From Bryobacterales bacterium (lineage in GTDB: Bacteria > Acidobacteriota > Terriglobia > Bryobacterales > UBA6623): 64,000 nucleotides of DNA. Below, one piece after another: positions 9,007 through 15,130 of this stretch. A program made the translations under genes and the position numbers. Location of the stretch: contig JAPPMB010000037.1 of NCBI GenBank assembly GCA_028819255.1, positions 1-64,000 on the forward strand, read 5' to 3'. The notes beneath the pieces are model-generated. The model had not been told where the DNA came from. It worked only from the letters and a program-made list of their open reading frames with translations, and did not search any database. Every line of letters starts with the position of its first letter. The first letter of the stretch is position 1.

Positions 9007-9576
9007 GTGCCATCACGGTCGGGCTGGGAGGCCAAGTACCGGCGGGAAGAAGTTGCAGCTGCGCCGGCGCCGGATCCGTTCCTGGTCGATTCGCGGAAGC
9101 ATCTCCCCGCCGACGGCGAACGCCGCGCCGCCGATATCGCATGCGGAGGGGGGCGCCACGCTCTCCTCATGGCAGCCTGGGGGCTGCGGACCACGGCAAT
9201 CGACTACTCGGCCGCGGCGCTCCGGCTGTGTAGGCAGCGGGCCAGGCGCAAGAGTCTCGAGCTGGAGACGCGGATCATGGACCTGGAGGCACCCGACGTC
9301 GACCTGGGCGCCAGCCGGTTCGACGTCGTAGCGGTGTTCAACTTCCTGCACCGCCCGCTGGTTCCGGTGCTCAAGCGGAGCGTGAGGCCGGGGGGCATCG
9401 TCGTCTACAAGACATACACTCGTAAGCAGTTGCGGTTCGGCGCGGGTCCGAGAAATCCGCGATTTCTGCTTGACGAAGGCGAGCTTGCCGAACTGTTCTC
9501 CGAGTTTCACTGCCTTCAGTACCGCGAATCATGCGAGCACGAAGCCACTGCGGCGCTTGTCGCGCAACGGCCCTGA
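9007..9576 (+). CDS. Class I SAM-dependent methyltransferase (TehB/UbiE-like)
   Basis: The 189-residue protein has a Rossmann methyltransferase fold. Motif I is DIACGGGRHALLMA (SAM-binding glycine loop), followed by the acidic strand end TTAIDYSAAAL, then MDLEAPD and FDVVAVFNFLHRPL (motif IV region), and RPGGIVVYKTYTR. The substrate cannot be read from sequence; closest in style are TehB-like small-molecule methyltransferases. The start is GTG 9007, since no in-frame ATG precedes motif I, and it lacks a strong ribosome-binding site. The last 46 bases overlap the start of the next gene in another frame, which suggests translational coupling. Confidence 0.78.
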   Translation: MPSRSGWEAKYRREEVAAAPAPDPFLVDSRKHLPADGERRAADIACGGGRHALLMAAWGLRTTAIDYSAAALRLCRQRARRKSLELETRIMDLEAPDVDLGASRFDVVAVFNFLHRPLVPVLKRSVRPGGIVVYKTYTRKQLRFGAGPRNPRFLLDEGELAELFSEFHCLQYRESCEHEATAALVAQRP

Positions 9577-11438
9577 TCGCCGCCGTCCTCGGGACACTGG
9601 CGACAACCGGCCTCGGCCAGCCTGCACCCGGCCAGCAGTCCGCTGCGAGCGTCATCCTGCCCACCGGACAGCGGATCACCCCGGCCGGAACCCAGGTGGC
9701 CGCGGACAGCCTGCCCATGTCCGCCGCCCTGTCTCCTGACGGGAGCTACCTGGCCGTACTCCACGCCGGGTTCGAGACGCCCTCGGTGTCCGCGATCGAG
9801 ATCTCGTCAGGAAAGGTCGTGGGCCGAGTCGAACTGAAGGATGCATGGCTCGGCCTCGCCTTCAGTCCGGCCGGTGACAGAATCTACGTCGGCGGAGGCG
9901 CGCGGTCCAGCGTCTGGCAACTGTCGCTTGCCGAGGGAGAGCTGCGGATCGATCGGGAGTTCCCCCTCTCAGGCGACTGTGCGGGAACGTGCAACTCCCT
10001 TGTCGGCGACGTGCTGCTGCATTCGGATGGCCGGACGCTCTTCGCCCTGGACGTGCTCCGGGACATGGTGCTGATCGTCAACGCCCAGTCGGGCCTGGTG
10101 CTCGGGGAGTTCAAGACCGGCTCGGCACCATACCGGGCTCGGCTGGCGCCGGGAGGCGGACATCTCTTCGTCAGCCACTGGGGCGAGGCCTCGCTGGGCC
10201 TCTACAGGCTCTCCGACCGCAGGCTTGTGGAGCGGATCCCGGTCGGCGAGCACCCGACGGACATTGCGGTCGTGCCGGGAACCGTCGAGGTGCCGGGCAG
10301 CGGCTTCGATGGAGACGACGAGCGCTCCTACCAGGCCCGGCTCTTCACGGTGTGCTCCCACGCCGACAACCTCTGGACCTTCGGAATCGCGAGCCCGGAG
10401 AAGCTGGAACTGCTCGATGCCCGCAGCGTGGCGCCCCTGCCGGGCTCGCCCCTGGGCTCGATGCCGACCGCACTGGGCCTGAGCGCGGACGGGACCACCC
10501 TGTACGTCACCAATTCCGGGAACAACATCATCCTCGTCAACAGCATCGATGAGGCGCTTCCCGAGCCGGCAGGGGCGATACCGACCGCCTGGTTTCCGAC
10601 GGCGGCCGTCGGGTTGCGCGACGGCGGCCTGGCCTACCTCAACGGCAAGGGGGACTCCCGGATTCCCGGGCTCGTCTCGCTGCTGCCTGCACTCAATTCC
10701 GACCAGCTCGCATTCCTCAGTGCTGCCGCCGTCGCCAACCTGCCGGGAGGGGGCGCCGGGGCCCCGCGGAGTGCGGCGGACACGTACCATGTGGGACTCG
10801 TCCTGACGGAGGCCCACTCCGAGGCAGGTCGGGCCTTCGAGGGAGCCGTGCCGCTGCCGGGGTTCGTCCCGCCGGCCCGCGGGCGTCTCGGGCAGATCGC
10901 CTGGCTGACCGGCGGCATGGAGACGGACTTCTTCGCAAAGCTCGGACCCGCTGTGTCCGCGGGGCGCCTGACAGAGAGAATGCTTGCCTCGGCGGGAAGA
11001 GCGGCGCGCCCCGCAGCCGGAACACTGTGGTCGAACGCCGCCGACGCATCCATCCACGTCGAGACCTACGGCATAGGAGGCGGGCGGCCGATCGAGGCGC
11101 TTCTGGCCAAGCTCGAAGCGAAAGCCCCTCCAGGCCGCCTGACCGTGCTCCGGCTCCACGGGACTGCGGCCGAGCAGGCCGAGTCGCTGACGAGACTGGG
11201 GGCGATCTGGAGTCGCCACCCCGCCTACCGGTCGACCGCCGTGTTTGTCGTGGCGATGGGTGACCAGCCGGGCGCTTTCGCGACCGGCGGGGCTGTCACC
11301 GGCGAGCCCGAGGTCCGAGGGTTCGTTTCCGCCCCAATGATCCTCCATACCGTCGAATGGCTTCTGGGCATGCGTCCGATGACGCAGTTCGACAACGCCG
11401 CCCCCGTTCTGCTCGAGCTGTTCGCCGGCGACCAGTGA
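9531..11438 (+). CDS. Exported YncE-like beta-propeller fused to a degenerate phosphoesterase domain
   Basis: The 635-residue product has an N-terminal signal peptide (hydrophobic ALIAAVLGTLATTG, with GQ near the expected cleavage). About 350 residues of YVTN/YncE-type propeller blades follow (LSPDGSYLAVLH, FSPAGDRIYVGGG, LSADGTTLYVTNSG). The C-terminal 200 residues align in outline with the alkaline-phosphatase/phosphoesterase domain of 'YncE plus phosphoesterase' proteins, ending in the landmark ILHTVEWLLGMRPMTQFD. The family's metal-binding Asp/His motifs are not visible, however; the region where a nucleophile would sit is Gly/Ala-rich. I infer a binding or structural role rather than catalysis. 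The start ATG lies inside the methyltransferase gene. The ileS gene follows 56 bases downstream. Confidence 0.75.
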   Translation: MRARSHCGACRATALIAAVLGTLATTGLGQPAPGQQSAASVILPTGQRITPAGTQVAADSLPMSAALSPDGSYLAVLHAGFETPSVSAIEISSGKVVGRVELKDAWLGLAFSPAGDRIYVGGGARSSVWQLSLAEGELRIDREFPLSGDCAGTCNSLVGDVLLHSDGRTLFALDVLRDMVLIVNAQSGLVLGEFKTGSAPYRARLAPGGGHLFVSHWGEASLGLYRLSDRRLVERIPVGEHPTDIAVVPGTVEVPGSGFDGDDERSYQARLFTVCSHADNLWTFGIASPEKLELLDARSVAPLPGSPLGSMPTALGLSADGTTLYVTNSGNNIILVNSIDEALPEPAGAIPTAWFPTAAVGLRDGGLAYLNGKGDSRIPGLVSLLPALNSDQLAFLSAAAVANLPGGGAGAPRSAADTYHVGLVLTEAHSEAGRAFEGAVPLPGFVPPARGRLGQIAWLTGGMETDFFAKLGPAVSAGRLTERMLASAGRAARPAAGTLWSNAADASIHVETYGIGGGRPIEALLAKLEAKAPPGRLTVLRLHGTAAEQAESLTRLGAIWSRHPAYRSTAVFVVAMGDQPGAFATGGAVTGEPEVRGFVSAPMILHTVEWLLGMRPMTQFDNAAPVLLELFAGDQ

Positions 11439-11494: not shown

Positions 11495-14400
11495 ATGCAC
11501 AAGCCCCGATTCCAGCGCGCGAAGCCAATCGTCGACTTCCCCGCGACCGAGCACGAGGTCGGCCGCTTCTGGGAGGAGCATCGAATCTTCGACAAGAGCC
11601 TGTCGCTGCGCGAAGGCGCGGAGCGGTTCATCTTCAACGAGGGCCCCCCCACCGCGAACGGCCTTCCCCACAACGGCCACGTGCTGACCCGCGTCTTCAA
11701 GGACGTGTTCCTCCGGTACCGCACGATGGCCGGCCGGTACGTTCCGCGCAAGGCGGGCTGGGACACGCACGGGCTGCCCGTCGAGGTCGAGGTCGAAAAG
11801 GAGCTCGGCATCCACGGCAAGCAGGCCATCGAGGACTACGGCGTCGAGCGATTCATTCGCAAGTGCATGGACTCGGTTTTCCGCTACACGGAGGAGTGGG
11901 AGAAGATGACGCGCAGGGTCGGCTTCTGGGTTGACCTGTCAGACGCGTACGTCACCTATCACAAGTCCTACGTCGAGAGCGTCTGGTGGGCGCTCGCGCA
12001 GCTGTTTCGGCAGGGCCTCCTCTATCGGGGCCACAAGATCGTCTGGTGGTGGCCCCAGGGGGGCACCGCGCTGTCCGCCGGAGAGGTCGGGCTCGGATAC
12101 AGGTCGGTCGAGGACCCCTCGGTGTACGTGGCCTGCCCACTGGCGGGCGATCCGGACGTCGCGCTGCTCGTCTGGACGACGACTCCATGGACGCTGCCGG
12201 CGAACCAGTACGTGGCGGTGCGTCCCGACTTCGACTATGTCCAGGTCCGGGCCGGCGGAAGGTCGCTGATTCTGGCGGCCGCCCTGCGCGGCACGATTGC
12301 GAAGAAGATTGGCGAGAGGCTGCCCGTCGAGAAGGAGATCCCGGGTTCTGCCTTGCTGGGACAGCGGTACCTTCCTCCGTTCCACCACTTCCGCGACGAA
12401 TTCTGGGACTCGGACGGCGAACTGCGCACCGGAGGCCGTGAGCCCTACCTGTGGAAAGTGCTGGCCGCGGATTTCGTGACGCTGGACACCGGGACCGGCC
12501 TGGTGCACCAGGCTCCCGCGTTCGGCGAGGTCGACTACGACCTGCACCGGCAGGTTGCGGACCTCTACCGGGAACTGGCGGAGGTTCCCCTGCTTTGCCC
12601 GGTCAGGCCCGACGGCACGTTCGACGATGCCGTCACCGAAGTCGCGGGCGAGTGGGTCAAGGACGCGGACCGGAAACTGATCTGGATGCTGCGGGAAAGC
12701 GGCGCCCTCGTTCACAGGGAGAACCACCGGCACGACTACCCGTTCTGCTGGCGCGCGGACAACGACCCGCTGATCCAGTACGCCCGCCCCGCGTGGTTCG
12801 TTCGGACAACCGCCCGCAACCGCGAGGTGCTCGCCAACAACGACGCCATCAACTGGCTGCCAGAGCACATCGGACCCGGGCGATTCGGCGACTTCCTGCG
12901 CAACAACATCGACTGGGCCCTCTCCAGAGAGCGCTACTGGGGCACGCCGCTCAACGTCTGGATCAACGACGCGACCGGCAATCTGGCGATGCCGTCGTCC
13001 TGCGGCGAGATTCTGCAGAAGAATCCGTCCGCGTTCGACCACTTCAGACGGGCCAAGGAGGCCGACGCCTCGCTTTCGGACCACCTGATGGTCCACAAGC
13101 CGTGGATCGACGAGGTGACCTGGACCGAACCCGGGGAACCCGGCGTGTACAGGCGGGTGCCGGAAGTCATCGACTGCTGGTTCGACTCGGGGTGCATGCC
13201 GTTCGCCCAGTACGGCTACCCGCATCAGGGGCGGGACGAATTCGAGTCCCGGTTCCCGGCGGACTACATCACCGAGGCCATCGACCAGACCCGGGGCTGG
13301 TTCTACTCCCAGCTGATGGTCTCGACGCTGGTGTTCGATGCGGCGTGCGCCCGGGAGCTCGGAATCCCGGCGCCCCCGTATCCGCATCCGTTCCGGAACT
13401 GCATCGTCCTGGGGCATGTCGCAGACCCCACTGGAAAGAAGGAGTCCAAGTCCCTCGGCAACTACACCCCGCCGGAGGTAATATTCGATCTGGTCTCCCA
13501 GGACTTCGCCGTGCGGAGCGGTCCGGACGGCGCCGGCTCCGTGCAGCCCGGCGAGGCCGCGATGGCAAGGCAGGACCTGCAGGCTCTCGACCTGCAGCCG
13601 GGCGACCGGCTCAAGGTCTCGGTTCCGGGCAACGGCGACCGGGCGCTCCGCCTGAGCGTCCGTCCGGACAGGCGGCTGCCCCGCAGGACGGTGCTGCTCT
13701 CGGAGCGGGACATGGAAGCGGTGGGGGCCCTGCCCGCCCGGGGCGGTGCGGAGGTCAGCCCCATCGACGTTCCGAGGCTGCCCGCGGGCGAGCGGGTCAG
13801 CCTCGAGGTGCCGTCCCCCGCCCCCGGCGCCGACGCGTTTCGGTGGTTCTTTCTTGCGGGCAACCCGCCGTGGTCGCCCACGAGGCACTCGCTTGCCAAC
13901 GTGCGGACCATCCAGAAGGAATTCCCGCTCAAGTTTCGAAACGTCTACTCGTTCTTCACCATCTACGCCGACATCGACGACTTCGACCCTTCCACGACAC
14001 CGGGCAGGCCCTTTTCCGCGAGAGGGCTGCTCGACCGCTGGATCCTGTCCGAACTGGATCTGCTCGCCGGACGGGTGCGCGCCTCCATGGACGCGTTCCT
14101 CGCCTATGAGGCTGCGGGCGAGCTCACCCGCTTCGTTGAGGGCCTCTCGAACTGGTACCTGCGGCGCAGCCGCGGGCGGTTCTGGAAGAGTGAGATTGAC
14201 GCGGACAAGACGGATGCCTACGCCACGCTGTACGAGTGCCTTGTCAGCGTGGCAAAGCTGAGCGCGTCGTTCACGCCGTTCATGGCGGAGGAGATCTACC
14301 AGAACGTGGTCCGGGGCGCGGGGATGCCGGGGCCCGAGAGCGTCCATCTGTGCGACCTGCCCCGGAGCAACGGCCGGGAGGACACTTCCCTGTCGGAGGA

Positions 14401-15130
14401 GATGGAGGCGGTCCGCCGGATCGTCTCGCTCGGGCTCCGCGTGCGGACGGAGCACCAGCTCAAGGTCCGCCAGCCGCTCAGCCGCGCGGAAGTCGTGATC
14501 GCCGATCCGGCGCTGCGGGAGCGGGTGGCTCCGTATGCCGGTCTGATCGCCGACGAGCTGAACGTGCGCGAGGTTCGCTTCGTCGAGGGCGACCAGGCCC
14601 ACGTCAACTATTCCGTGAAGCCGAACTTCCGGAGGCTCGGCCCGCGGCTCGGCAAGAAGATGAGGAAGGTGAAGAAGGTGTTCGCGGAGCTGGATGCCGC
14701 GGCCCTGCGTGCGAGCCTGCTGGACAGCGGAAGCGCCGAGATCGACTTCGACGGCGAGAGGCTGAGGCTCGACAGCGACGACGTGCAGGTCAGCGTCGGG
14801 GCGGAAGAGCATTTCGCCGCGGCTGGCGACTCGGCGACGGTCGTGGTCCTGAGCACCGAGCTGAACGACGAGCTGCGCGACGAGGGCTTCTACAGGGAAC
14901 TGCTGCACCGGGTCCAGAACCTGCGCAAGGAAGCCGACATCGAGTACACGCGCCGCATCGAGCTCTCATTGGCAGGATCCGAGCGCGCGGCCCGGATCGT
15001 CGGCAGGAACCGCGACCATCTCATGGCCGAGACTCTGTGCACAAAGCTCCGTGCCGGCGAGGGAAGCGGCATCGAGCGGGCGTTCGAGATCGACGGCGAG
15101 CGGATTCGGATCTTCCTGGAGACTGTCTGA
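11495..15130 (+). CDS. ileS: Isoleucyl-tRNA synthetase, type 2, with a ~110-residue insert
   Basis: The 1211-residue enzyme charges tRNA-Ile with isoleucine in the cytoplasm. The class I signature appears as HNGH (residues 59-62) within ANGLPHNGH and as KESKS (649-653) in place of KMSKS. The ANGLPHxGH context and overall length mark the type-2, eukaryote-like form, which is typically mupirocin-tolerant. The editing domain ([11 protein letters not shown]) and the C-terminal anticodon-binding region are present. Residues 668-777 (13496-13825) are an insert between VIFDLV and GADAFRWFF, where most IleRS are continuous; it reads as a small beta-rich domain ([22 protein letters not shown]). ATG 11495 gives the family N-terminus; an upstream in-frame start at 11357 lies inside the previous gene. 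Confidence 0.96.

Follow-up and report, generated by a model that had tools for sequence, protein, structure and literature searches.

Type-2 isoleucyl-tRNA synthetases (IleRS2), the variability of their motifs and the occurrence of inserted domains in synthetases are already known. Inserted domains are regarded as the means by which tRNA synthetases were assembled (PMC10810186). In LeuRS, the leucine-specific domain precedes the KMSKS motif, has a presumed zinc-ribbon origin and lies near the tRNA D-loop base, and its main function is called unclear (PMC6588880). The KMSKS loop binds the phosphates of ATP (PMC7955072). For IleRS, PMC10485003 describes the x of the HxGH motif as hydrophobic in its 379 IleRS, and the HxGH motif and KMSKS loop of IleRS2 as displaced towards each other.

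Here we analysed the ileS gene in a window of 64,000 nucleotides, the whole stretch of DNA under study, from a Bryobacterales bacterium. What appears to be new is a predicted double-psi beta-barrel (DPBB) domain at this site of IleRS, accompanied by a paired change in the signature motifs. No description of the insert was found in the open-licence papers searched.

The ileS gene and its insert

The gene encodes an enzyme of 1211 residues without internal stops when read from the ATG at 11495; a second in-frame ATG lies upstream at 11357, and the frame is open there too. The product scored 762.2 bits against the TIGR00392 ileS model (cut-off, 621.4), identifying it as an IleRS, and contained the Pfam domains tRNA-synt_1, Anticodon_1 (residues 847–996) and DUF5915. 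Its alignment score was 783.4 bits with the IleRS2 of Priestia megaterium versus 258.5 with the IleRS1 of the same species, and both domains expected of IleRS2 were detected, namely, the Anticodon_1 domain and a match to 1wk8_A, which we take to be the CP1 editing domain. The enzyme departs from the canonical pattern of a hydrophobic x in HxGH together with KMSKS, reading HNGH and KESKS. Since IleRS2 motifs are known to vary, we treated the enzyme, on its sequence, as a variant within IleRS2 and not as one outside it. Two resistance classes were considered and rejected: the scores for MupA and MupB were 744.6 and 714.7 bits (NCBIfam exception cut-offs, 1900), and the G/AxHH motif of the hyper-resistant IleRS2 is replaced by HNGH.

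The source genome (6.7 Mb, 98% complete) contained one IleRS. No second IleRS was found in it, the remaining matches being pieces at 27–30% identity that were taken for related synthetases (Val, Leu, Met). Upstream of ileS, ARAGORN called a 91-base tRNA-Asp at 9888–9978, inside an open 635-residue ORF (9531–11438); this is probably a false call.

Table 1. Features of the ileS gene, with positions in the window
Feature	Residues	Position	Strand	Evidence or remark
ileS, type-2 isoleucyl-tRNA synthetase, 1211 aa		11495..15130	+	translation, ORF list, TIGR00392
Class I signature motif 1, HNGH	59–62	11669..11680	+	Asn60 insert-clade-specific in rows compared
Region matching IleRS editing domain	200–416	12092..12742	+	match to 1wk8_A
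Class I signature motif 2, KESKS	649–653	13439..13453	+	Glu650 replaces Met/Leu
Inserted domain, predicted double-psi beta-barrel	668–777	13496..13825	+	translation, AlphaFold2, structure searches
Arg730–Arg731	730–731	13682..13687	+	invariant in 95/95 aligned distinct long-form rows (of 97)
GADAFRW, ordinary IleRS chain restarts	778–784	13826..13846	+	Phe782 in 1/21 insert-less rows
Trp793	793	13871..13873	+	fixed in carrier rows compared; 1/21 insert-less rows
Gln807	807	13913..13915	+	fixed in carrier rows compared; 0/21 insert-less rows
DUF5915 C-terminal region of IleRS	1017–1210	14543..15124	+	PF19302, E 1.1e-48

The insert starts with SQDFAV, after which the ordinary chain resumes at GADAFRW. 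Among solved structures, P. megaterium IleRS2 (8c8v) was the closest in sequence, and its HMMER alignment split into two blocks, residues 19–661 and 778–1180, with residues 662–777 of the query facing six residues of the P. megaterium enzyme. The spacing from the KxSKxxxN element to GADA was 11 residues in all 22 insert-less rows and 121 in the window, that is, 110 more. The first-pass annotation had proposed a 110-residue, beta-rich, in-frame insert next to the catalytic loop, following a KMSKS-like motif. Translation placed the insert at the same positions to the residue, and it indeed adjoins the loop, lying between the KESKS element and GADAFRW. The motif reads KESKS, with a Glu that is common to the whole carrier clade, and AlphaFold2 models the insert with six strands and three short helices. 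The possible objections raised were an artefact of assembly or annotation and absence from close relatives; the insert was kept in frame in 17/17 genomes of the same family (10 of the same genus, 7 of the same family), and an artefact was therefore rejected.

Residues 614–630 (13334–13384), just before KESKS, are also longer in most carriers. The spacing from DQTRGW to KxSK was 45–50 residues in 54 of the 65 carrier rows used in the trees and 36 in the other 11; the insert-less rows showed 32 or 36 (16 measured of 21). There may thus be another small insertion here, packed close to the barrel.

Predicted fold of the insert

An AlphaFold2 model of the long-form insert, based on 78 rows, reached a pLDDT of 84.6 and a pTM of 0.79. 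Its strands and helices span residues 667–772 (13493–13810) in the order b-b-a-b, b-b-a-a-b, and identical elements were obtained for the insert in a model of 1117 residues of the enzyme (pLDDT, 82.2; pTM, 0.71). In that longer model, confidence was low at both signature motifs (mean of 55 at residues 51–60; below 50 at 641–645 and 647–656), so that the position of the barrel relative to the active site is uncertain. Foldseek against the PDB returned as best match the native DPBB of a VCP-like ATPase (7dg9, E 1.7e-5), followed by a designed DPBB and then many p97 N-domains. Alignment to the p97 N-domain 5epp_A with VIA-align gave a Z of 14.1 and an rmsd of 1.9 over 87 residues; identity to the matched VCP/p97 barrels was 10–20%. 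As the model of the long form matches solved DPBBs across the entire domain, the insert is predicted to be a double-psi beta-barrel.

Sequence supported the DPBB fold only weakly. The first-pass annotation had suggested an HMM search of the insert as a check. Some members of the insert family touched CDC48_N (PF02359) or Molydop_binding (PF01568), both of which are presumably DPBB families, but the insert of the window matched neither: CDC48_N gave no match up to E 10, nor in a scan to E 1, and Molydop_binding none in the profile scan. Among the 78 members, 9 matched CDC48_N at E up to 1 (best, 0.0036) and 26 matched Molydop_binding at E up to 1 (best, 9.2e-5), with two members scoring 14.9 and 14.5 bits against the Molydop_binding gathering cut-off of 26.8. 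These matches were intermixed with unrelated weak families. Comparison by hhalign with nine acidobacterial CDC48_N domains gave a probability of 5.5% over 25 columns for the long form, and of 15.9% over 40 columns for the short form described below. Pfam scans of single members (19 long, 1 short) returned weak matches to mixed families, most of them probably due to chance. Given strong structural and weak profile matches, we regard the insert as a predicted DPBB that falls outside CDC48_N by sequence, membership of that family being rejected on the Pfam scans and hhalign. Two other candidates were also set aside, namely, a MazE/AbrB-like swapped hairpin (E 0.066, under the cut-off) and SmpB (hmmsearch E 0.18, judged to be chance).

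Distribution, ancestry and the signature motifs

Within the same order but outside the family, the insert was found in 1 of 23 genomes (G023). For the other 22, the best matches listed were pieces at 31–41% identity, and the insert was absent from the three same-order IleRS that were aligned (L025, L026 and L032). Two genomes of the order contained longer IleRS-like ORFs of another kind (G031:C27 and G025:C89; 1134 and 1177 aa); the former genome had a second IleRS-like match on C12, and the latter had no other among the matches listed. In an even draw of 396 genomes across the phylum, the insert profile matched the source genome only.

A scan of named genomes yielded 220 relatives; the 80 best were retained, and 77 of these carried the insert. 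The best 80 of 220 comprised Bryobacterales, other Acidobacteria and Myxococcota (Myxococcus xanthus, Sorangium, Polyangium, Nannocystis and others). Some metagenome-assembled genomes labelled Proteobacteria or Deltaproteobacteria were also present in this set, together with one record labelled Comamonas. The latter (L082, Comamonas sp. KCTC 72670) encodes a Myxococcus-like insert-bearing IleRS and is perhaps a mislabelled or mixed assembly. The first-pass belief that similar long IleRS occur in some Planctomycetes and Acidobacteria held for Acidobacteria (Bryobacterales); no Planctomycete appeared among the best 80 of 220 loci, and most of the named carriers found were Myxococcota. The insert profile was detected in 67 of 195 genomes assigned to the M. 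xanthus phylum and in 32 of 235 genomes drawn from the Sorangium phylum, three of them weakly, the phyla being as delimited in the taxonomy of the genome collection.

In 18 of 21 carrier genomes, a second IleRS-like match was missing (next best below 76 bits; in two, the gene was split over contigs), and the remaining three, all myxobacteria and including M. xanthus, had a second IleRS at 34–36% identity. A stand-alone copy of the insert domain was not found in the source genome, where the profile detected the ileS copy only, and the M. xanthus insert gave no match among 72,556 plasmids. Three insert-bearing ORFs (L065, L072 and L209) open far upstream (1679, 1653 and 1670 aa); these extensions are probably high-GC open frames and not real N-terminal domains.

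For comparison of the carriers, the segment preceding the insert was searched in 103 genomes of the Sorangium phylum, and further and earlier loci were added. After removal of 21 duplicates from 156 rows, 97 long-form, 16 short-form and 22 insert-less IleRS remained as distinct rows; 10 rows in which the motif pattern was not found were skipped, including the second IleRS of M. xanthus, L233. The long form was defined by more than 105 residues between the motif and GADA together with the presence of Arg730–Arg731 (RR). Because no row above 105 residues lacked RR, its invariance was not produced by this definition. The net added length was 103–123 residues in the long form (111 in 43 of 97) and 80–90 in the short form, and the two forms were homologous by hhalign (96% probability, E 4.9e-9, 84 aligned columns).

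Trees were built with the insert removed, from 87 rows under LG and from 86 rows under LG+C20, the latter with L236 dropped, as it also was from the column-by-column comparison. All 65 carrier rows lay on one side of a branch in the LG tree (support 99), and in the C20 tree the insert-less rows lay on one side (support 99). The long form and the short form each formed a group (support 100 in both cases), no insert-less row fell inside the carrier group in either tree, and the three states (long, short and absent) needed two changes, the minimum possible. The five insert-less rows nearest to the carriers read KLSKR or KLSKH, and GADAVRW or GADAMRW. The trees infer no root; the reading of the insert as a gain and not a loss is based on its absence from both the insert-less groups and the IleRS2 of P. 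megaterium. The Bryobacterales rows formed one group (support 100) among four basal long-form lineages, the other three consisting mostly of Myxococcota by record title or of genomes of the M. xanthus and Sorangium phyla. This basal placement, together with the near absence of the insert from other Acidobacteriota, suggests lateral transfer of ileS, and we infer its direction to have been into Bryobacterales.

We then asked which columns follow the insert, requiring the same residue in more than 93% of 49 long-form and more than 90% of 16 short-form tree rows, and tolerating it in no more than 1 of 21 insert-less rows. With the insert excluded from the columns compared, five positions passed, namely, Asn60, Glu650, Phe782, Trp793 and Gln807, each fixed in every carrier tree row with a letter there. 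Two of the five are the x of HxGH (Asn60) and the x of KxSKS (Glu650). The Glu of KxSK was present in 113/113 distinct carriers versus 0/22 insert-less IleRS, and the Asn of HxGH in 107/107 readable carriers versus 0/21 readable insert-less rows (19 HxGH, two GIHH). The scan of named genomes had used the peptide patterns KESKS[KL]GN and PGADAFRW, which biases its sampling of motifs. As KESKS was one of the search patterns, the Glu was recounted on loci found otherwise: KESK was present in 51/51 distinct carriers not found via the KESKS pattern, and in 40/40 further loci (39 distinct) found via the insert profile alone, short loci in which the HxGH Asn was unreadable. Since all carriers form one group, the association of insert and motifs counts as a single event and may be coincidence. 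Three insert-bearing IleRS (L079, L089 and L103) read HNGS in place of HNGH, having lost the last His, and no other IleRS-like match was found in the two of their genomes searched (L079 in G442, L089 in G445). The GIHH of two insert-less IleRS2 is of the published mupirocin hyper-resistance motif type.

Possible roles of the barrel and comparison with known systems

We compared the insert with its flanks, taken as 200 residues before and through the motif and 220 residues after the insert. Mean identity over 93 distinct long-form rows (4278 pairs) was 70% before, 46% in and 62% after the insert. The median dN/dS over 117 close pairs of distinct rows was 0.174 before, 0.269 in and 0.267 after the insert, with no value above 1; in 100 of the 117 pairs, the insert exceeded the preceding part. 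These values supersede an earlier run that included duplicate genomes (178 pairs; core, 0.118; insert, 0.276; after, 0.161). The insert is under purifying selection that is weaker than in the preceding catalytic part and similar to that in the following part. Besides RR, Asp699 was conserved in 94 of 95 aligned long-form rows. In the short form, RR itself is absent, and an invariant Lys (16/16) stands opposite its first Arg. The median net charge was −2 in both forms (95 long-form and 16 short-form rows), and the content of Lys, Arg and His was approximately 15% in both.

The first-pass annotation had assigned no function to the insert, suggesting that it may affect tRNA binding or drug tolerance; the candidate roles are narrowed by the predicted double-psi barrel fold, the restriction to a single clade and the coupling to the motifs. 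We favour, somewhat short of an even chance, a reading in which the barrel is a lineage-specific module that acts with the altered HNGH and KESKS motifs on the KMSKS loop. An ancestral type-2 IleRS would have acquired a DPBB domain, probably in a single event within Myxococcota or close to them, at the junction of the segment bearing KMSKS and the helix that follows it (GADAxRW); the domain would then have been retained in a long form and a short form. The whole gene was most likely passed to the ancestor of some Bryobacterales, and would serve in the source genome as the sole IleRS found. The barrel would be located on the mobile, KMSKS side of the active site, where it and the altered motifs would jointly govern the closure of the KMSKS loop over ATP and the tRNA 3' end. 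It would be a structural and allosteric module and not a new catalytic site, comparable in its working to the leucine-specific domain of LeuRS without belonging to that family. Buttressing or timing of KMSKS closure is ranked as most likely because of the position of the insert, its constraint and the motif coupling. Tolerated insertions are expected to be less conserved than their flanks, as this one is, and the absence of the long-form invariant RR from the short form likewise counts against a role in KMSKS closure.

In class I enzymes, the segment after KMSKS faces tRNA. The barrel might accordingly be a tRNA-contact module near the acceptor or D arm of tRNA-Ile, aiding docking or the switch between synthesis and editing, and the invariance of RR in the long form is consistent with this. 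However, the net charge and basic content given above are unlike those of a large RNA surface, and the short form keeps only one basic residue at the RR site. An extensive tRNA-binding surface gains no support from an insert that is not rich in basic residues, and we place tRNA contact second, as a serious but minority possibility. Ranked third, and unlikely in our judgement, is a tolerated structural insertion that contributes to stability only, with the motif changes as unrelated fixed differences of the branch. Such an origin fits the position of all carriers on one side of one branch, the existence of two size classes and the finding that the insert is the least conserved stretch examined. 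Against it stand a level of purifying selection approximately equal to that of the part after the insert, the invariant polar residues in the insert, the lack of insert-less rows within the carrier group in either tree, and the location of two of the five clade-fixed positions in the catalytic signatures.

Docking of a partner protein, in the manner in which the p97 N-domain receives cofactors, comes last in the ranking and seems very improbable: the closest solved folds are VCP-type barrels and many of the matched p97 N-domain entries are partner-bound, but the fold by itself shows no function and the hhalign comparison of either form with CDC48_N was weak. The branch may instead have adapted to IleRS inhibitors such as mupirocin via the Asn and Glu changes, with or without the barrel, an explanation that overlaps with KMSKS closure. 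In IleRS2, the tail of mupirocin is forced into the cleft that separates HxGH from KMSKS, and sensitivity is altered by changes to the motifs in this region (PMC10485003). Asn60 and Glu650 are located in these two motifs. Inhibitor adaptation nevertheless appears improbable, as the G/AxHH hyper-resistance motif was present in none of 107 readable carriers (HNGH, with HNGS in three). If drug tolerance does differ, the clade-wide Asn and Glu changes would explain it no less plausibly than the insert. A broader proposal is that the carriers are a distinct IleRS branch that acquired a DPBB in KMSKS control and re-tuned both motifs, with Asn60 and Glu650 possibly in contact when the loop closes, altering the handling of ATP, the adenylate and the tRNA 3' end and possibly inhibitor sensitivity; we consider this possible, though rather doubtful.

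The locus represents a one-branch insertion beside KMSKS with long, short and absent states in near relatives and with changes in both signatures, and its carriers include cultivable bacteria, for example, Myxococcus xanthus. A functional link between the barrel and the motif changes, if there is one, would make the branch a natural experiment on HIGH–KMSKS coupling, and IleRS inhibitors could then behave differently in carrier bacteria.

Among known systems, the IleRS2 of P. megaterium (8c8u/8c8v) is alignable on both sides of the insert at 783 bits, belongs to the same type-2 class and is the best structural match of the long model (Z 38.6, 836 residues aligned, rmsd 9.8). Unlike the enzyme of the window, it is without an insert after KMSKS and has the motifs HVGH and KMSKS in place of HNGH and KESKS. 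The G/AxHH enzymes, which are hyper-resistant to mupirocin, resemble the carriers in being IleRS2 with an altered class I signature motif, but they swap positions 1 and 3 of HxGH (PMC10485003), whereas here position 2 of each motif is changed. The predicted fold of the insert is that of the N-domain DPBB of p97/VCP/CDC48 and of archaeal VCP-like ATPases (5epp and 7dg9); in contrast to these, the insert lies inside a tRNA synthetase, falls under the Pfam cut-off for CDC48_N and shares only the low identity noted above. The leucine-specific domain of bacterial LeuRS is likewise an extra variable domain beside KMSKS in a class Ia synthetase. It lies on the N-terminal side of KMSKS in LeuRS, whereas in IleRS the insert follows the KMSKS element on the C-terminal side and is predicted to be a DPBB; on the grounds of this position, identification of the insert as a leucine-specific domain was rejected.
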